IMG/VR virus record: IMGVR_UViG_3300028610_000043 | Span: 1 to 45,668 of that record | Origin: a virus | DNA length: 45,668 bases | Strand: one strand, 5' to 3' | Shown: piece after piece, positions 9,807-39,847 of the stretch | Numbering within the stretch: the stretch's first letter is position 1 | How the letters are laid out: the number at the start of each line of letters is the position of its first letter | Program-made: the position numbers and the translations under genes | Notes under the pieces: model-generated | The model's input: only the letters and a program-made list of their open reading frames with translations | Databases searched by the model: none | Told to the model about the DNA's origin: nothing

Positions 9807-9913
9807 CAATGTATTAAGTCAATAGCACTTAAACGTTCATTAACAATCAATTGTACGACCTTCATAGAGATATCTATTATCTCTCTAATCAAACTATATA
9901 AGTGAGAATAATC

Positions 9914-10324
9914 ATGAGTAATATCAAAAAGCAGTTCGTATCTATCTTTAGTATCATTGAAACTAATAAAGATAAATTCTCTAAATCACTTTATCAGTCT
10001 CTTGTTGATGAATGTACAAGTAAGACACTTGCACAGACATTCAGAACTAACGATGATGGCGATTTAGAAGTATTTTGTTGGTATCATAAAGAGTGGGAGA
10101 ATACAACCACTTGTGAGTATGGTAACAAGAAAGGTACTAAGACTGGACTCAATACAATGTGCAAACAAGGTGTAAGTTCATGGACTAAGCAACAACGAGT
10201 TCTTAAGTCTTCTAAAGAAAATCTCTTGACTCAAGTAATGAATGGTGACGTTCAACAAGATGAGTTAGTAGATTTAATGTATGACCTTGAACAAGCATCT
10301 AAAAAGATTGAATCTCGCAAGTAA
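9914..10324 (+). CDS. Conserved early protein with TGLNxMCKxGVSxWTK motif
   Basis: The 136-residue product shares its core with the 162-residue gene at 11993-12481. Both have a W/FYH segment, then G-x-K, then TGLN-[TS]-MCK-x-GVS-x-WTK, a basic helix, and a Leu/Asp-rich C-terminal helix ending near KI or QI. The function is unknown to me. The basic motif and early position suggest a nucleic-acid-binding or host-takeover protein. I chose the ATG at 9914 (MSNIKKQF) rather than the in-frame GTG twelve bases earlier because of the GTGAG motif upstream. A promoter precedes it and an intrinsic terminator follows 6 bp after the stop. Confidence 0.75.
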   Translation: MSNIKKQFVSIFSIIETNKDKFSKSLYQSLVDECTSKTLAQTFRTNDDGDLEVFCWYHKEWENTTTCEYGNKKGTKTGLNTMCKQGVSSWTKQQRVLKSSKENLLTQVMNGDVQQDELVDLMYDLEQASKKIESRK

Positions 10325-11992: not shown

Positions 11993-12481
11993 ATGACAAT
12001 TAAAAAAGCTTATGTAGCCATCGTCGAATTTCTCGAACAGAATGGTGAGAAGAAAGTTAAATCAGTTATTAAAGATGTAATTGCTATGGCATCAGCGAGA
12101 ACTGGTGGAGGTGGTGGTAAAGCTACTGCTTTCCATAGAGATGAAAAATCACAAGTAGTAACTGCTGTTCGATGCTTCTACCATCGTTTATGGATGTCAC
12201 CTCAAATTGTTGATTTTGGTGCTAAAGCATCATCTGCCACTGGCTTAAATAGTATGTGTAAAGATGGTGTATCAAAATGGACTAAACGTGACCGTGCTTA
12301 TAAAGCAGGCAAAGAAGGTTTACTTGCTGACTTGATAAATGAAGAAGTTGACTTTAATCAAGCAGACCTTGCAGATGCAATGGCAGCACTTGAGACAGCA
12401 AAGACTCAAATCATTCCTCGTGAAGATGGTTATGGCTTTGAGACTTTAGAAGATTGTTTGGCTGACTTAGCCAATCGTTAG
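11993..12481 (+). CDS. Paralogue of the 136-residue early protein, 162 residues
   Basis: The core FGAKASSATGLNSMCKDGVSKWTKRDR aligns with FG-like residues, TGLNTMCKQGVSSWTKQQR of the gene at 9914. A Gly-rich loop ARTGGGGGK near residue 36 and a C-terminal extension with acidic character distinguish it. The gene has its own promoter and is followed by two hairpins and a T-tract. Paralogues flanking the AT-rich repeat region, each as a separate transcription unit, suggest related roles early in infection, perhaps DNA binding. Function unknown. Confidence 0.8.
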   Translation: MTIKKAYVAIVEFLEQNGEKKVKSVIKDVIAMASARTGGGGGKATAFHRDEKSQVVTAVRCFYHRLWMSPQIVDFGAKASSATGLNSMCKDGVSKWTKRDRAYKAGKEGLLADLINEEVDFNQADLADAMAALETAKTQIIPREDGYGFETLEDCLADLANR

Positions 12482-18930: not shown

Positions 18931-19184
18931 TGGAAGAATACACTATAATTGGAGTACGTTTTAATAAGTACAGTCCTACTTATCATTATAAAACTAATGA
19001 GGAGTTTGAAGTTAAAGATTTGGCTGTAGTAAAAGCTCCTGATGGTTTTAAAGTAGTAGAAGTTACTCATATTAATGTTGACGAAATTGAAAACCCATCA
19101 TTTAGTGAGTATAAATGGATTGTTCAAAAACTGGTAGACCAAAGACCTAAGGAGGATGAATGCGAACGCCCTACAAGATTGTAA
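18930..19184 (+). CDS. Tandem paralogue of the preceding protein, 84 residues
   Basis: MEEYTIIGVRFNKYSPTYHY, then EFEVKDLAVVKAPDGFKVVE, then EYKWIVQKLVDQ align with the preceding gene's IIAVRF, YHYKT, EGDTVIV and KWVVQKVCD. It lacks that gene's basic C-terminal helix. The 3' end overlaps the DNA polymerase gene by 25 bp and contains the polymerase's AAGGAGG ribosome-binding site, so the genes are translationally linked. Function unknown. Confidence 0.65.
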   Translation: MEEYTIIGVRFNKYSPTYHYKTNEEFEVKDLAVVKAPDGFKVVEVTHINVDEIENPSFSEYKWIVQKLVDQRPKEDECERPTRL

Positions 19185-20815
19185 AGCTTGAAGACTTAAA
19201 GCTTGATAAATCTAAAGACATTGGCTTTGATATAGAAACGTGCGGGTTTTATCAAAAGATAAGACTTGCACAGTTTTATCAAGAAGGTGATGAGTATGTA
19301 CAAATGGTTGAATGGCCAGACCCAATATTGCTTGCTAAGTTGGTAAATAACTATAATTTATTAATACACAATGCTCATTATGAAATAACCACTATTCAAC
19401 AACAAACAGATACACGTTGGATACCTAAACAATATGCATGTACATTCTTATTAGCTCGACTTGCTTTACCTAAAGATACTGAGTTTAGCTTAGATGCAGT
19501 TATATTAAGTGTTCTAGGACATGACCCTTATGTTGACCAACATTTAGATAAGAAGAAGCTACAAAAAACTAATTGGGAAGCAGCTTATTTAACTGAAGCA
19601 CAAAGATTATATGCTGCTACTGATGTATATTATATGCCTCAAGTATACGAAGCAGTTAAATGTGCAGAAGAAGAGTATAACTATAAATTAGACATATTGA
19701 TTCTTGAATATTGCTTAGATTTTCAATGGAATGGTATGCCATTGGATATAGACAGATTAAATACTAGATTCCGTGAGAATGAAAAGAAGCTTAAAGAACT
19801 AGCTTGTCCAATTAATTATAATAGCTGGCAACAAGTACGTAAATGGCTAGACAGTGACCAATCAGATGATATTGCATTAGCTCGTATGGAACTTAATGGC
19901 AATGAAAGAGCTAAAATGATTAGAACTTGTCGTAAGACTGCTAAGCAAAATTCATTTATTAAGAAATATTTATTAAGGGATGATGTCTTATTAGGTAAGT
20001 TTAAACCATCAGCTAGGTCAGGTAGACTAACATCAAATGACGAGAATTTACAACAGATACCTCGTAAACTAAAAGGATGTTTTTCTGCTAGACCAGGTAA
20101 GGTTTTAATTTATGCTGATTATGCTCAGTTAGAGTTAAGAACTATTGCTGCTATTGTTAATTGTACACTTATGGTACAAAAGTTCAGAGAAGGCGTTGAT
20201 ATTCACAATTTCACAGCTGAAATGATATTTGGTATAGACTTTACTAAACATCAAAGACAATTAACTAAAACTGCTAATTTTAACTTTCTATACGGTGGTG
20301 GTATTGCTGTATTTATTTCTATTCTTATTAAAGAAGCAAGTATTTGGTTAAAAGACCGTGAAGCTTATTCACTAAGAAAGAAGTGGCGTAATCTATGGAG
20401 TGAAATATATGCCTGGCAACAGCGTGGTATTACTGCATGGGAACGAGGCAAGATATGGTCTACACCATTAGGTCGACAGTATGTTGGCAAGATGATGACA
20501 GACCAGTTGAATATCCAGAACCAAGGAGCAGGTAGTGAGGTAGCTAAGTTGGCTCTTCATTATATGTATCCTGAAGGTAGTAAGCTTGGAGACCTCTGTG
20601 ACTTCATCCATGACTCATATATATGGGAATGTGATGATGACCCAACTGTCTATGAACCCTTAGCTCAGATTGTTGCAGATGCAATGCAAGAAAGTTGGAC
20701 AGAAATGTCTCAGCTATTCAAAGTCAAAGACCTTCCTATGCCAGTTAATGTAAGAGTAGGTACAAACTGGGGAGATATAGAAGACGGTCACTTTATATGG
20801 GAGTTAAATCAATGA
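19160..20815 (+). CDS. polA-like: Family A DNA polymerase with 3'-5' exonuclease domain
   Basis: The 551-residue enzyme has both domains. Proofreading: FDIET near residue 23 (Exo I), HNAHYE near 70 (Exo II) and YAATDVYYM near 152 (Exo III). Polymerase: DYAQLELRT near 319 (motif A), RQLTKTANFNFLYGGG near 370 (O helix, motif B) and DFIHDSYIWE near 483 (motif C). It is shorter than T7 DNA polymerase (about 700 residues), lacking much of the thumb insertion that binds thioredoxin. The O helix has Asn after the key Phe where many family members have Gly. It copies the phage genome together with the primase-helicase and SSB. Confidence 0.95.
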   Translation: MRTPYKIVKLEDLKLDKSKDIGFDIETCGFYQKIRLAQFYQEGDEYVQMVEWPDPILLAKLVNNYNLLIHNAHYEITTIQQQTDTRWIPKQYACTFLLARLALPKDTEFSLDAVILSVLGHDPYVDQHLDKKKLQKTNWEAAYLTEAQRLYAATDVYYMPQVYEAVKCAEEEYNYKLDILILEYCLDFQWNGMPLDIDRLNTRFRENEKKLKELACPINYNSWQQVRKWLDSDQSDDIALARMELNGNERAKMIRTCRKTAKQNSFIKKYLLRDDVLLGKFKPSARSGRLTSNDENLQQIPRKLKGCFSARPGKVLIYADYAQLELRTIAAIVNCTLMVQKFREGVDIHNFTAEMIFGIDFTKHQRQLTKTANFNFLYGGGIAVFISILIKEASIWLKDREAYSLRKKWRNLWSEIYAWQQRGITAWERGKIWSTPLGRQYVGKMMTDQLNIQNQGAGSEVAKLALHYMYPEGSKLGDLCDFIHDSYIWECDDDPTVYEPLAQIVADAMQESWTEMSQLFKVKDLPMPVNVRVGTNWGDIEDGHFIWELNQ

Positions 20816-20934: not shown

Positions 20935-21203
20935 ATATTAAAGATATGAACAAAGCAAAAATATTAGCAGCATTATATAATAATTCTAGACCTTTAGGTA
21001 TGGGATTTCTTCAAGCTACACCAGAAGATATGACTGAAGATGAAGCTCAAGCTTTATTAAATGAGGGTCAAGCCTATTTTGATTATCTTAAAGGTCGTGT
21101 AATGAAAGTAGACTTAAGTAAAGATGAGTTATTTACTGGATTATATAATCGTGATAATGGTCCTAATCGTTGTGAAGAAATAATAGAAGGTTTAACATTA
21201 TGA
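20931..21203 (+). CDS. Conserved phage protein with GMGFLQ and YFDYLKGRVMKVDL motifs
   Basis: The 90-residue protein contains KAKILAALYNNSRPLGMGFL, MTEDEAQALLNEGQAYFDYL, KGRVMKVDLSKDE and LYNRDNGP. I remember this as a widespread small phage protein of unknown function, often near nucleotide or replication genes. It overlaps the enzyme at 21200 by 4 bp. The RDNG and KVDL elements look like a metal or nucleotide site but this is unproven. Confidence 0.72.
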   Translation: MNIKDMNKAKILAALYNNSRPLGMGFLQATPEDMTEDEAQALLNEGQAYFDYLKGRVMKVDLSKDELFTGLYNRDNGPNRCEEIIEGLTL

Positions 21204-22012
21204 CAGTTCAAAAGTTTGAACTTCATTATGCAGACTTGATTAGTAAGATATTGTGTAAAGGTGAAAAGAAAGATTGTCGTAATGGTTATACTAAATCTGT
21301 TTTTGGTGAGAGTATTAAAGTCGATATATCTGATGGTTCTTTTCCTCTTATACAAGGACGTAAGATGTATCCTGAAGGTATACTTGGTGAGTTTGCTGCA
21401 TTTGTACGAGGACCTAAACATGTTGATGACTTCAAGAAATGGGGTTGCAATTATTGGGATTTATGGGCAGATAAAGATGGCAACTTAACTATTGACTACG
21501 GTAATGCTTGGATAGCTAATGGACAGTTAGACTGGCTTATTAAGACTCTTAAGACTAATCCTAATGACCGTCGAATGATTATTAATGGTTGGAGACCTGA
21601 GAGATTAAAATATCTTAGCTTACCTTGTTGTCACTATTCTTATCAATTTCATGTCAATACTAATGGTGAGCTAAATATGATATGGAATCAACGGTCTGTT
21701 GATATGATGATAGGCTTACCTGCTGACTTTGTATTAGCAGCTATTTGGGTTATTATATTAGCTAATGAAGTTAATCTTAGACCTGGTACTATTACAATGA
21801 TGTTGGGTGATTGTCATATATATGATGAACATTTAGACCAAGCTGAAATGTATATTAATAATGTTTATCGTTATCTTGGTAACTTACAAATGTCTATCCC
21901 TTTATGTGAATTAATTGCACCTGTAGGCACTCCTATGATTCAAATGGAGCCTGGATGGTTTGGTATTTTATATGAGAGTATGGACCCTATTAAGTTTTTA
22001 CTTAAGGAGTAA
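21200..22012 (+). CDS. Thymidylate-synthase-fold enzyme, probable dCMP hydroxymethylase
   Basis: The 270-residue protein keeps the TS framework: RR at 124-125, catalytic Cys144 in LPCCH, QRSVD at 164-168, and GDCHIY with His206 and Tyr208. The decisive position is Asp176 in GLPADF, where thymidylate synthases have Asn in PFNIA. In T4 gp42 the Asn-to-Asp change makes the enzyme select dCMP. It would transfer a one-carbon unit from methylene-tetrahydrofolate to dCMP, giving hydroxymethyl-dCMP, or methyl-dCMP as in phage XP12. A MazG-like pyrophosphatase and a dCMP deaminase follow. No kinase or glucosyltransferase is visible. A divergent thymidylate synthase remains possible. Confidence 0.75.
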   Translation: MTVQKFELHYADLISKILCKGEKKDCRNGYTKSVFGESIKVDISDGSFPLIQGRKMYPEGILGEFAAFVRGPKHVDDFKKWGCNYWDLWADKDGNLTIDYGNAWIANGQLDWLIKTLKTNPNDRRMIINGWRPERLKYLSLPCCHYSYQFHVNTNGELNMIWNQRSVDMMIGLPADFVLAAIWVIILANEVNLRPGTITMMLGDCHIYDEHLDQAEMYINNVYRYLGNLQMSIPLCELIAPVGTPMIQMEPGWFGILYESMDPIKFLLKE

Positions 22013-22015
22013 CTA

Positions 22016-22579
22016 ATGCAAGAAATATATGAACGAGTAGCTAAATGGAATAAGCTTCGTTATGAACGAGAATATAATGAAGCTTTAACTTTTAGCTTGT
22101 TACAAGAAGAACTTAAAGAATTCTATGATGCTAAGAATGTTGTTGAAGAAGTAGATGCCTTATGCGATGTAATGTTTATTGCTTTTGGTGGCATTTGGAA
22201 ATTGGGTGAAGATATAGATGCTTGTATGGCGCATGCAGTTAAAGTTGCACAAGGATTAATCAATGTGCAAGAATTAATGCCTGCTTATTACATCCCAGCT
22301 TTTATGGGAGCTAGTGCTATAACTGACTATCCTCAAATGACTATGCTATGTGTCACAATACAGTTAGCTGCTTCACAGTTAACAGGTTATGGTTTAGACA
22401 GGAAGGGCGTTGAAGAAGTATTACTTGCTGTCTGTGACTCTAATGATACTAAGTGCGCAGAGAAAATACCAACTGATTCTAAATATACAAATCAAGGTAA
22501 AGGGGATGACTATATATCTCCTAAACTTGCTATAACTAATATATTAAGGAGTAAGAAATGTCTATCGACAGTACATTAA
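22016..22579 (+). CDS. MazG-like nucleotide pyrophosphohydrolase
   Basis: The 187-residue protein has the all-alpha NTP pyrophosphatase signature: EELKE at residues 31-35 and EEVDALCD at 44-51, the EExxE and ExxD metal-binding motifs. A C-terminal part with AVCDSNDTKCAEKI, GKGDDYISPKLAI is also seen in phage MazG-like proteins. Members of this superfamily include T4 dCTPase. Three bases separate it from the TS-fold enzyme. A dCTP-to-dCMP activity would both remove dCTP and feed that enzyme. Substrate specificity cannot be read from sequence. Confidence 0.75.
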   Translation: MQEIYERVAKWNKLRYEREYNEALTFSLLQEELKEFYDAKNVVEEVDALCDVMFIAFGGIWKLGEDIDACMAHAVKVAQGLINVQELMPAYYIPAFMGASAITDYPQMTMLCVTIQLAASQLTGYGLDRKGVEEVLLAVCDSNDTKCAEKIPTDSKYTNQGKGDDYISPKLAITNILRSKKCLSTVH

Positions 22580-22962
22580 AAGAAAGAAGTCGCTATGGAC
22601 CATTTGAAAGTCATTCTGAATTAAGTCAAAAACTTAAAAAATGTATGGTTAGTCATCATGTGACTAATTGGGAGAAATTACCACCTATTATAAAAGAAGC
22701 TCTTGAAATGATACAACATAAAGTTGCTCGTATACTTAATGGTGACCCAATGTATGGTGATAATTGGCATGATATACAAGGTTATGCAAAACTTGTAGAA
22801 GATTGGATAAATCCTCCAATTACTACAATGCCACCAGACCTTGAAACACCTATACCTATAACAACTGTAATAAATGTAGATTTAGCTGAAGAATGTATTT
22901 GTACAAAATTTACAAAATCATTTCATGGTTGTTGTGTTGAATGTGGAGGTATCGTAATATGA
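22558..22962 (+). CDS. DUF6378-like protein with C-terminal Cys motif
   Basis: The 134-residue product contains TLKERSRYGPFESHSELSQK, then EALEMIQHKVARILNGDPMY, NWHDIQGYAKLVEDW, which is the DUF6378 pattern of phages (RYG-x-F, EAL-x-MI-x-HK, RILNGDP, D-x-W-x-DI-x-GYA). The fold is probably all-helical and may be distantly related to MazG-type proteins. The C-terminus has CICTKFTKSFHGCCVECGG, which could bind zinc. It overlaps the MazG-like gene by 22 bp with GGAG upstream. Function unknown. Confidence 0.72.
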   Translation: MSIDSTLKERSRYGPFESHSELSQKLKKCMVSHHVTNWEKLPPIIKEALEMIQHKVARILNGDPMYGDNWHDIQGYAKLVEDWINPPITTMPPDLETPIPITTVINVDLAEECICTKFTKSFHGCCVECGGIVI

Positions 22963-23414
22963 ATAAGTGGACTAAGCGCTTCATTGCTATAGCTCATGAA
23001 GTTGCTACTTGGAGTAAAGACCCTAAATGTCAAGTTGGATGTGTTATAGTCTCACCTGACAAAAGGCAATTTACTGTTGGTTATAATGGCTTTCCTAAAG
23101 GTATTAAAGATTTAGATGGACGACTAGCAGATCAAGTGTATAAGAATAGTATTACTGTACACGCTGAACTTAATGCTATACTAAATGCTGGTACTAATCT
23201 TGAAGGCTGGACATTATATACTACTAAGCCATTATGCGTAAATTGTGCAGCAGCTGTTATCCAAGCAGGTATAAAAGACATAGTAATGCCAAATGTAGCT
23301 GAAAATAGTGACTGGAAAGCTGAAAATGATGCTGGATATCTGCTTTTAGTTGAAACGGGCTCCAAAATCATCCGTTACGACGTTTTATATTCTAGCCCAG
23401 ACAAACATATCTAA
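22959..23414 (+). CDS. dcd-like: Deoxycytidylate (dCMP) deaminase
   Basis: The 151-residue protein has the zinc deaminase signature: HAE at residues 68-70 and PLCVNC at 91-96, giving zinc ligands His68, Cys93 and Cys96 and catalytic Glu70. VGCVIVSPDKR and GYNGFPKG are typical of dCMP deaminases. It converts dCMP to dUMP for dTMP synthesis. T4 also encodes both a dCMP deaminase and a dCMP hydroxymethylase. I chose the ATG at 22959, which overlaps the previous TGA (ATGA) and has GGAGG upstream, over the in-frame start 18 bp earlier. Confidence 0.9.
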   Translation: MNKWTKRFIAIAHEVATWSKDPKCQVGCVIVSPDKRQFTVGYNGFPKGIKDLDGRLADQVYKNSITVHAELNAILNAGTNLEGWTLYTTKPLCVNCAAAVIQAGIKDIVMPNVAENSDWKAENDAGYLLLVETGSKIIRYDVLYSSPDKHI

Positions 23415-29185: not shown

Positions 29186-29593
29186 TCATATATTTTTACC
29201 TGCCCAAAAAGCAGGTCCTCCCCATTCTTGTACAGCCCAATAATACTTACTTGCTCTACGTCTCATTAAGGCTGTTGGTTTCCACCATTTATGTGATTGT
29301 GTGTCAATTATTCGAACCATATTATTACGCATAACTCTATCAGCTTCATCTTTATCTTCTACAGTTCTACCTTCATTATACATAAAATCATGTATATGAC
29401 AAGCATAACCAATATAAGTACCATAAATTTTATCTGGTACAAAATCAAACTTAGCATTAGCTGCACCACAACCATTACATATTTCCATAAGAACAGTAAT
29501 AGGTGAATTAAGAAATGAAGCAGGTGCAAATAATTTACCTTGTGTAGCTAATAATTTAGCTTTAATAATTTGAGCTTCTTGTTTAGTGTCCAT
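29186..29593 (-). CDS. Phospholipase A2-like fold protein
   Basis: The 135-residue protein contains NGCGAANAKFDFVPDKIYGT, then YACHIHDFMYNEG with the PLA2-type His68-Asp69 pair after Cys65, then DEADRVMRNNM with a second Asp, and ends GGPAFWAGKN. This C-x-x-HD-x-x-Y plus later Asp arrangement resembles secreted phospholipase A2 and the PLA2-like proteins I remember from other phages. It is last in the leftward operon, next to a lipoprotein, so roles in lysis, membrane damage or entry are possible. Catalysis is not shown. Confidence 0.62.
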   Translation of the reverse strand: MDTKQEAQIIKAKLLATQGKLFAPASFLNSPITVLMEICNGCGAANAKFDFVPDKIYGTYIGYACHIHDFMYNEGRTVEDKDEADRVMRNNMVRIIDTQSHKWWKPTALMRRRASKYYWAVQEWGGPAFWAGKNI

Positions 29594-38257: not shown

Positions 38258-38841
38258 TAGCCTTTCTCCTCATTCAGATAGTCAGCTAAAGCTGTACCTG
38301 TCGTTTCTATAGCAGTCTGAGTAGCTGATGCTGAAGACCTTGCTGCTGTCTCTGCTCTAGCTCTTGCATCTGCTGCTCTGTCACCTAATATTCTACTCAT
38401 TGAATCACCAGGGTCTTGACCTAAGCCAACTTGAAGAAATCGCATTTTCTCATCTGCTACTGCACCAGGAGCTGAACGTCTAACATCTGCACGTTGTCTC
38501 ATAGTTTCAAATTCAAGACCTGTCTGAGCTGATTTAGCTAAACCACTACTTGAAATACCACGTTGAGCAAAGTTTTCATCAATTAACTTCATAGTTCTAG
38601 CTTTTTCAGTTTCAATAGCTTCTAAACCTTCTACTTCATACTGGTCTGGACTTAAGTCAGTATAATACTGAGCTAAATTTTCTTGTATAGGACCATATAT
38701 ATTTTGCCAATCATCGTATCGCTGTTGTTCAAAAGCTAATGCAGCAGCATCTGATTCAGCAGCATCATCTGACGCACTACTACTGCTACTAGAACCTATT
38801 ATAGCCCCTAATACGGTTGCTCCAGCTGCAATCCAAGCCAT
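38257..38841 (-). CDS. Small internal virion protein with N-terminal hydrophobic segment
   Basis: Starting at ATG 38841, which has AAAGGAG upstream and a TAATG overlap with the sulfotransferase-like gene, the protein has 194 residues (MAWIAAGATVLGAIIGSSSS). The first 16 residues are hydrophobic, then comes a Ser/Ala/Asp linker, and then long Ala/Glu/Arg-rich helices (ALAFEQQRYDDW, then RMRQRADVRR-like repeats). This matches the layout of the small podophage ejection proteins (T7 gp14-like) that sit in the outer membrane after ejection. The family call is by layout only. Confidence 0.65.
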   Translation of the reverse strand: MAWIAAGATVLGAIIGSSSSSSASDDAAESDAAALAFEQQRYDDWQNIYGPIQENLAQYYTDLSPDQYEVEGLEAIETEKARTMKLIDENFAQRGISSSGLAKSAQTGLEFETMRQRADVRRSAPGAVADEKMRFLQVGLGQDPGDSMSRILGDRAADARARAETAARSSASATQTAIETTGTALADYLNEEKG

Positions 38842-39320
38842 TATGTATTCTCCTTTAATAATTGCATAGCCCAAGAAGTTGGTGTACATTGTTCAGCTTC
38901 TATAGTCATTTGTTTAAATTCTTCTACAATTTTTGAATCAGGATAAGTATTAGTACAATAGTATACTATAGACTCTAATTGTCTATCTAAGTCATAAAAA
39001 TTCACATGTAACCCTTTAAATGTACGTAATTTCTTTTGTAATGCATAAAGCATTTTAGTCATATCTTTATTATATAACTGTTTTAAACTATCTATAACTT
39101 CAATTATTGGTCTATGTACAATAACTGTAGGTAAAGCTATCTCACCATAATAAGCCATACCACAATCAGCATTACCACCAAGATATAAGTCAATAATAAA
39201 TTCATCTTCACTATTACTATGCGCTAATAATTCATGATGACAAGGATGGCCAAGTGCTGTAAAAAACTTAGCAAACCAAGCTGTCCTACTTCTAGGTAAT
39301 CCTGTGATAATAAAACTCAT
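38841..39320 (-). CDS. Sulfotransferase-like P-loop protein
   Basis: The 159-residue protein begins MSFIITGLPRSRTAWFAKFF, where GLPRSRTAW (residues 7-15) matches the 5'-phosphosulfate-binding loop of sulfotransferases (PRSGTTW). IVHRPIIEVIDSL (Arg70, Ser78) matches the 3'-phosphate-binding motif. It is much shorter than standard sulfotransferases (about 250-300). The Cys/His segment GHPCHHELLAHS follows the first motif. If active, it would transfer sulfate from PAPS to a sugar or other acceptor. It lies between a fibre and an ejection protein. I chose ATG 39320, where ATGA overlaps the fibre stop. Confidence 0.65.
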   Translation of the reverse strand: MSFIITGLPRSRTAWFAKFFTALGHPCHHELLAHSNSEDEFIIDLYLGGNADCGMAYYGEIALPTVIVHRPIIEVIDSLKQLYNKDMTKMLYALQKKLRTFKGLHVNFYDLDRQLESIVYYCTNTYPDSKIVEEFKQMTIEAEQCTPTSWAMQLLKENT

Positions 39321-39847
39321 ACTTGTGTCCAACCATTAGTTAAAGCTAAAGCAAATGTGTTGCCTGTTCTGTAGAAACATTTAACATCTACACCTGTATT
39401 TTCCATTAATACTCGCTGTACTACACCACCACCTAAAGATAAAGCACTATCGATATATGTAATATAAGTAGTACCACCAGTAACAGCAAAAGGTGCATTA
39501 GTCATTTCACTACCTAAAGCTGTAAATTGTCCTTTACCTTGAAGCTGATTCCAAGCAACACTATCAAAGTCTCTAAACACTATATCAAGTTCTTGATGTC
39601 CAGTAGTAAATTCTGAATCCTTAGCAAAAATACTAGTTGTAGAAAGTGCTTCATCTGTAGACTCTGTAGTACTAGTTAATTCTGATATTGAATCTTGTAT
39701 AGACGTTATAGCTGCGTCTACTTCTGTTAAATTTGGAACATCTTCAGCTAAACCTTGTAATTCACCTAAAGCTTCTACAACAGCTTGCATATACCGTTTA
39801 ACAAGTACAGGGTCATCTAAATTTACAGGCACTTGAATGTCAATCAT
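39317..39847 (-). CDS. Short tail fibre-like protein
   Basis: The 176-residue protein starts MIDIQVPVNLDDPVLVKRYM. A helical, coiled-coil-like region (residues 20-80, with LTEVDAAITSIQDSISEL) leads to a beta domain ending FYRTGNTFALALTNGWTQV. Coiled-coil stalk plus C-terminal beta head is the plan of trimeric phage fibres. I chose ATG 39847 over an in-frame TTG 18 bp upstream. It overlaps the nozzle-like protein by 8 bp and the sulfotransferase-like gene by ATGA. Receptor binding is inferred. Confidence 0.6.
   Translation of the reverse strand: MIDIQVPVNLDDPVLVKRYMQAVVEALGELQGLAEDVPNLTEVDAAITSIQDSISELTSTTESTDEALSTTSIFAKDSEFTTGHQELDIVFRDFDSVAWNQLQGKGQFTALGSEMTNAPFAVTGGTTYITYIDSALSLGGGVVQRVLMENTGVDVKCFYRTGNTFALALTNGWTQV

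Follow-up and report, generated by a model that had tools for sequence, protein, structure and literature searches.

A thymidylate synthase-fold phage protein with aspartate at the base-selectivity position: a predicted dCMP C5-methylase

The window analysed here, the whole 45,668-nucleotide stretch of the IMG/VR virus record IMGVR_UViG_3300028610_000043, encodes a thymidylate synthase (TS)-fold protein with Asp in place of the Asn that tells dUMP from dCMP. A sequence-only reading had taken the protein for a dCMP hydroxymethylase of a phage with modified cytosine in its DNA. The locus thus raises the questions of which nucleotide the enzyme uses, whether it transfers a methyl or a hydroxymethyl group, and where the product goes.

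Fold, active site and relatives of the TS-fold protein

The gene starts with ATG and codes for 270 amino acids. Its product belongs to the TS family (PF00303, E=7.9e-58 in Pfam; phrog_160), with a top match of 1.3e-38 among PDB sequences. The AlphaFold model (mean pLDDT 95.9) matched E. coli TS with a query-normalised TM-score of 0.85-0.88; all 50 of the PDB matches listed were TS or DHFR-TS, and T4 dCMP hydroxymethylase was absent among them. In the HMMER alignment with solved TS structures, LPCCHYSYQ of the window protein lies opposite LPPCHCLFQ, which identifies C144 as the catalytic Cys, and GLPADF lies opposite GVPFNI, which places Asp176 at E. coli Asn177. Except for Asn177, replaced by Asp176, the canonical TS catalytic set is complete: E64, W86, Y100, R124/125, C144, H145, Q164-R165-S166, H206 and Y208 (in E. 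coli TS E58, W80, Y94, R126/127, C146, H147, Q165-R166-S167, H207 and Y209). The sequence-only reading had correctly reported Cys144, Arg124-Arg125, Gln164-Arg165-Ser166, His206 and Tyr208 to be in place and Asp176 to occupy the dUMP/dCMP selectivity position; these residues, D176 included, are invariant in an alignment of nine clade sequences.

Position 177 (E. coli numbering) was compared in 99 TS-family sequences, a set that includes T4 gp42, DLP4 and BF486P1. Asp is present in 96 and Asn in three, one of which is the canonical TS of BF486P1; because of this distribution, Asp176 is neither a sequencing slip nor a chance event. Among the phage relatives, about 95 in number, almost all keep Asp177, which persists across deep divergence (40-65% identity). 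According to works cited in PMC8670742, the same Asn-to-Asp change in an active site otherwise like that of TS (E. coli TS N177D, L. casei TS N229D) yields dCMP methylases, with the preference shifted from dUMP to dCMP. The use of dCMP, which the sequence-only reading had inferred from Asp176, is therefore a well-supported prediction, backed by the alignment, by conservation in the clade and by this cited mutagenesis. Unlike in the laboratory mutants, Asp is here natural and clade-wide, and is accompanied by the additional changes Asp99, Asn102 and Cys143, which form the clade signature DYGNAW/LPCCH in place of VYGKQW/LPPCH of TS. Asp99 adjoins Tyr100, and all 45 sequences aligned have Asp at this position; in the larger set, Asp precedes the catalytic Tyr in 93 of 99.

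The comparison drew on 131 related loci in a single viral collection, IMG/VR, 80 of which were fetched. A search of 84,980 prokaryote genomes yielded only four related loci, which makes this in essence a viral clade. Megablast of 10 kb of the window against phage records gave zero matches. The close relatives are podoviruses infecting Pseudoalteromonas, Vibrio, Edwardsiella and Dickeya, along with Manatee Spring genomes and one Pelagibacter phage. The sequenced isolates of the group, KF-1, VPMS1, PH1 and Amaethon (Kafunavirus and kin), have an orthologous TS (about 48-54% identical along most of its length) and share with the window Asp177, a MazG-type gene behind the TS gene and the replication gene order. 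Their TS, however, is annotated as thymidylate synthase ('pyrimidine hmase' in one related record), and their deaminase is of another subtype or, in VPMS1, absent. Exactly one TS-family gene was found in each of 50 records, and neither a second TS nor ThyX was found in any of the 50. Common descent of the clade with T4 gp42 or DLP4 is not claimed, as both are long branches of unsure placement in the tree.

The window is also nearly devoid of GATC, with three sites (5325, 5943 and 23130) versus 113 expected from trinucleotides. VPMS1 has three versus 85 expected and many relatives have none, whereas GATC is not avoided in others, among them Pelagibacter phage Kolga (21 versus 15 expected). The depletion points to host-linked pressure, perhaps from a Dam+ gammaproteobacterial host.

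Gene neighbours and natural Asn177 variants

Features of the TS module and of the gene upstream of it
Feature	Coordinates	Strand	Basis
Family A DNA polymerase, upstream of module	19160..20815	+	PF00476 1.1e-34, PF01612
TS-fold enzyme with Asp at base-selectivity position; predicted dCMP C5-methylase (5-methyl-dCMP synthase)	21200..22012	+	PF00303, residue mapping, AlphaFold model
MazG/PRA-PH-type all-alpha NTP pyrophosphohydrolase	22016..22579	+	PF01503 3.9e-5 (above cut-off); phrog_671 nucleotide pyrophosphohydrolase
DUF6378-like small protein inside module	22558..22962	+	PF19905 2.1e-4 (below its cut-off); phrog_16943
Zn-dependent dCMP-deaminase-family protein	22941..23414	+	PF00383 6.1e-20; phrog_174 dCMP deaminase 2.8e-40

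Two neighbours that the sequence-only reading had not linked to the enzyme are a MazG-type gene and a gene of the dCMP-deaminase family. The former starts four bases downstream of the TS gene, and the predicted role of its product is to convert the triphosphate to dCMP (or dUMP). In VPMS1 the corresponding protein is annotated as DR2231-like. A MazG-type gene lies directly 3' of the TS gene in about 60 relatives and near it, mostly directly behind, in 68 of 87 loci whose downstream sequence extends for 2.5 kb or more; it is missing there in a minority of Asp177 loci. The EExxE motif is kept in 30 of 31. A search of the confident structure model (pLDDT 93.7) against the PDB with Foldseek was discarded as a guide to the substrate, since only meaningless helix-bundle matches were returned; a Leishmania dUTPase stood at rank 46 with a TM-score of 0.45 but an E of 3.5.

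The deaminase-family protein carries the motifs HAE, CxxC and GYNG and could act on dCMP, 5-methyl-dCMP or 5-methyl-dCTP. A PF00383 gene is present in 44 of 49 Asp177-clade records, some of which are near-duplicates, and in neither of the two Asn177 records. One Trp has an aligned Trp in the deaminase of DLP4 and is probably the counterpart of W128 of Xp12, which PMC12088426 discusses as partnering the methyl group. A role in defence was rejected, as the PADLOC match to a dCTPase model reflects the shared deaminase domain. The DNA polymerase encoded upstream would need to accept a modified dNTP if cytosine were replaced.

No DHFR (PF00186) was found in the window. In agreement with the sequence-only reading, which saw no dedicated hmdCMP kinase and no glucosyltransferase, a T4-type dNMP kinase was found neither in the window nor in 38 relatives, and no glucosyltransferase was found among the window proteins scanned. 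The T4-type kinase is also absent from the Xp12-type phage DLP4, so its absence argues neither way. The PF02543 carbamoyltransferase, a partner gene in the MetaGPA study, was found in none of 50 records, DLP4 included.

The gene set itself is already known from that study (PMC8670742), in which PF00303, PF01503, PF00383 and PF14437 co-occur on contigs with modified cytosine. All four domains are present in the window, together with Asp177. The top two positions in that work are 177 and 147, and His147 is lost in the enzymes tied to modified cytosine; the window clade, in contrast, changes 177 only and keeps His147 (His in 97 of the 99 sequences; His145 in the window protein). A close parallel is the phage Xp12, in which all cytosine is 5-methylcytosine and for which DLP4, of the same genus (Bosavirus), was read as a proxy. 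DLP4 encodes DHFR, a deaminase, a TS with Asp177 and MazG. The window resembles it in the Asp177 TS fold, a non-acidic residue three before the catalytic Cys, MazG, the deaminase family and the lack of a T4-type kinase and of a second TS. It differs in His147 (Pro in DLP4), in Asp99, Asn102 and Cys143, in the absence of DHFR from the window and in a TS sequence too diverged for joint placement in a tree.

Two members inside the clade (L061:3989-4816 and L062:4004-4819) have Asn177 and appear to be natural revertants. They paired in a quick tree, a pairing that the careful tree did not resolve, so the change may represent one event or two. No deaminase gene was found in either record, that of L061 being a 21-kb fragment. 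MazG was not detectable in L062, and in L061 its EExxE is changed to DTxxK. L061 encodes a true DHFR (3.1e-37), whereas the L062 ORF at the MazG position is DHFR-like by eye only, with no Pfam match. Both retain Asp99. Since the revertants are without the deaminase and have MazG lost or motif-broken, the pattern fits Asp177, MazG and the deaminase forming one functional unit, although few events lie behind it.

Several other features were noted. Vibrio phage VAP7 (L115, 529-1431), with a 145-kb genome of the Ackermannviridae, encodes a TS annotated as ordinary that bears both modified-cytosine-type marks, Asp177 and Pro147 (LPPCPVLFQ, GVPFDI). In the window, an ORF among the virion genes (38841-39332, minus strand; start FIITGLPRSRTAWFAKFF) has a sulfotransferase-type P-loop by eye; it had no Pfam match and matched only phrog_10855 'hydrolase'. 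The early proteins encoded at 9902-10324 and 11993-12481 (plus strand) are paralogous, both belonging to phrog_10459. A possible phospholipase A2-like protein with the motif CHIHDFMYNEG (29186-29593, minus strand; PF09056 E=0.003, below cut-off) is encoded beside lysis/virion genes.

The transferred group

TS-type methylation converts the folate cofactor to DHF; hydroxymethylation leaves THF, which is not oxidised. DHFR scored above cut-off in six of 50 records: four of the Asp177 clade, one Asn177 member and DLP4. It lies directly 3' of the Asp177 TS gene in L076, and the gene order in L031 is TS, MazG, deaminase, nuclease, DHFR. In L004, L045, L050 and L072 DHFR is located away from the module, and no other TS is present in these four. 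DHFR beside an Asp177 TS therefore fits methyl rather than hydroxymethyl transfer. The residues point the same way. The signature of hydroxymethylation is Asp/Glu three residues before the catalytic Cys and Ser/Thr two before Tyr96; the T4 enzyme lacks the C-terminal tail of TS, and its D145N variant yields no product (PMC6400193). The window protein has Leu141 and Ile98 at the two positions and retains the tail (...DPIKFLLKE), as do its relatives. At the first position Leu is found in 97 of the 99 sequences, the exceptions being DLP4 (Asn) and T4 gp42 (Asp, as also in the dUMP hydroxymethylase SPO1 gp29); at the second, Val, Leu or Ile is found in 93 of 99. Thus, T4 gp42 shares the TS fold, the catalytic Cys and Asp at the N177 position, and its genome encodes a dCTPase/dUTPase, but it has Asp, Ser and Thr147 where the window protein has Leu, Ile and His, and it is without the tail that the window protein retains. 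Both lines, signature residues with the tail and DHFR, favour methylation. The likelier product would be 5-methyl-dCMP, which we rather favour, 5-hydroxymethyl-dCMP being improbable.

A T4-like dCMP hydroxymethylase, in which water adds to the methylene intermediate to give 5-hydroxymethyl-dCMP and hydroxymethylated DNA, was the assignment of the sequence-only reading, and it did not hold up as the preferred one; we regard it as unlikely. Asp176 agrees with it, as does a window without DHFR, and the polar Asp99 stands where the T4 enzyme has Ser94 (Val93 in E. coli TS; equivalence from PMC6400193). Asp99 could act on water in place of the water-activating Asp145 of T4, and hydroxymethylation therefore keeps a small share of the probability. 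However, besides the residues, tail and DHFR described above, Asp99 is found in both Asn177 members as well, and neither the carbamoyltransferase nor a glucosyltransferase was detected in the sets scanned. Still less probable is an ordinary TS that tolerates Asp and mainly converts dUMP to dTMP. It would explain the otherwise complete set of TS residues, with His147 and the tail, the DHFR of some relatives and the presence of a sole TS-family gene in each record, yet the cited mutants shift from dUMP to dCMP, Asp has been kept through the divergence of the clade, and the Asn177 members differ in their partner genes.

From the computed fold, residues and gene partners, with their conservation, we infer the substrate, the product and its fate, and the substrates of the MazG-type protein and the deaminase. 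The explanation that we favour, with somewhat better than even confidence, is a folate-dependent dCMP C5-methylase in an Xp12-like module, with the product going into DNA and/or to dTMP/dTTP; a dCMP methyltransferase is made in Xp12-infected cells (PMC8543423). Asp176 would re-tune thymidylate synthase to bind and protonate cytosine, and the adjoining pyrophosphohydrolase would supply dCMP from dCTP. The methylene of methylene-THF would pass to C5 of dCMP and be reduced by hydride as in TS, giving 5-methyl-dCMP and DHF. The former could be phosphorylated by a host or another gene product and enter DNA as 5-methylcytosine, and/or be deaminated by the neighbouring enzyme to dTMP/dTTP, as in phage Xp12. 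Counting against a methylase are His147, which is replaced in DLP4, T4 gp42 and SPO1 gp29, the possible water activator Asp99, the absence of DHFR from the window and from what most Asp177 relatives show, and the minority of Asp177 loci that lack MazG near TS. On balance, the protein is likelier to belong to the Xp12 type, as a separate variant with Asp177 and His147, than to be a T4-type hydroxymethylase.

Fate of the product

A dCMP methylase could also serve thymidylate supply, from dCTP through dCMP (MazG) and 5-methyl-dCMP to dTMP/dTTP (deaminase), with ordinary cytosine in virion DNA. This possibility overlaps the methylase explanation favoured above, differing solely in product fate, and is plausible though rather less probable. 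It accords with the distribution of the deaminase between Asp177 and Asn177 records, with the single TS gene and lack of ThyX, and with the failure to find a T4-type dNMP kinase. According to PMC12088426, 5-methyl-dCMP is a substrate of known DCTDs, and the deaminase of Xp12 converts 5-methyl-dCTP to dTTP. The His147 kept by the clade also weakens the modified-DNA reading, as does the HhaI band profile given for VPMS1 DNA in the text of PMC4870561, since 5mC at GCGC blocks HhaI (PMC7653180). However, VPMS1, the source of the HhaI data, is without the deaminase. Its genome has 148 GCGC sites, and complete HhaI digestion would leave no fragment over 1.9 kb, versus the bands of 7-10 kb that the text of PMC4870561 gives for another phage on the same gel; VPMS1 DNA may be partially modified alongside its HhaI profile. 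Moreover, Xp12 does both at once. Palindrome avoidance was rejected as a test of modified DNA because it offered no usable contrast, the Xp12-type DLP4 and T4 looking like the rest; its sole yield was the GATC depletion described above. We consider modified virion DNA about as probable as unmodified, and leave the choice between DNA modification and the thymidylate route undecided.

A widespread group of small phages, routinely annotated as carriers of thymidylate synthase, thus most likely has a cytosine-methylating pathway. This bears on how the DNA of these phages resists or triggers restriction, and on how reliably Asp177 denotes modified DNA in metagenomes, as the clade breaks the 177/147 pair of MetaGPA. 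It also bears on whether phage dTTP arises via 5-methyl-dCMP rather than dUMP. Possibly, though with no more than a minor share of the probability, the clade represents a natural cytosine-first route to thymidylate with no dUMP step, in which the DNA need not be modified and from which the Asn177 members would have returned to dUMP, shedding the deaminase and a working MazG.
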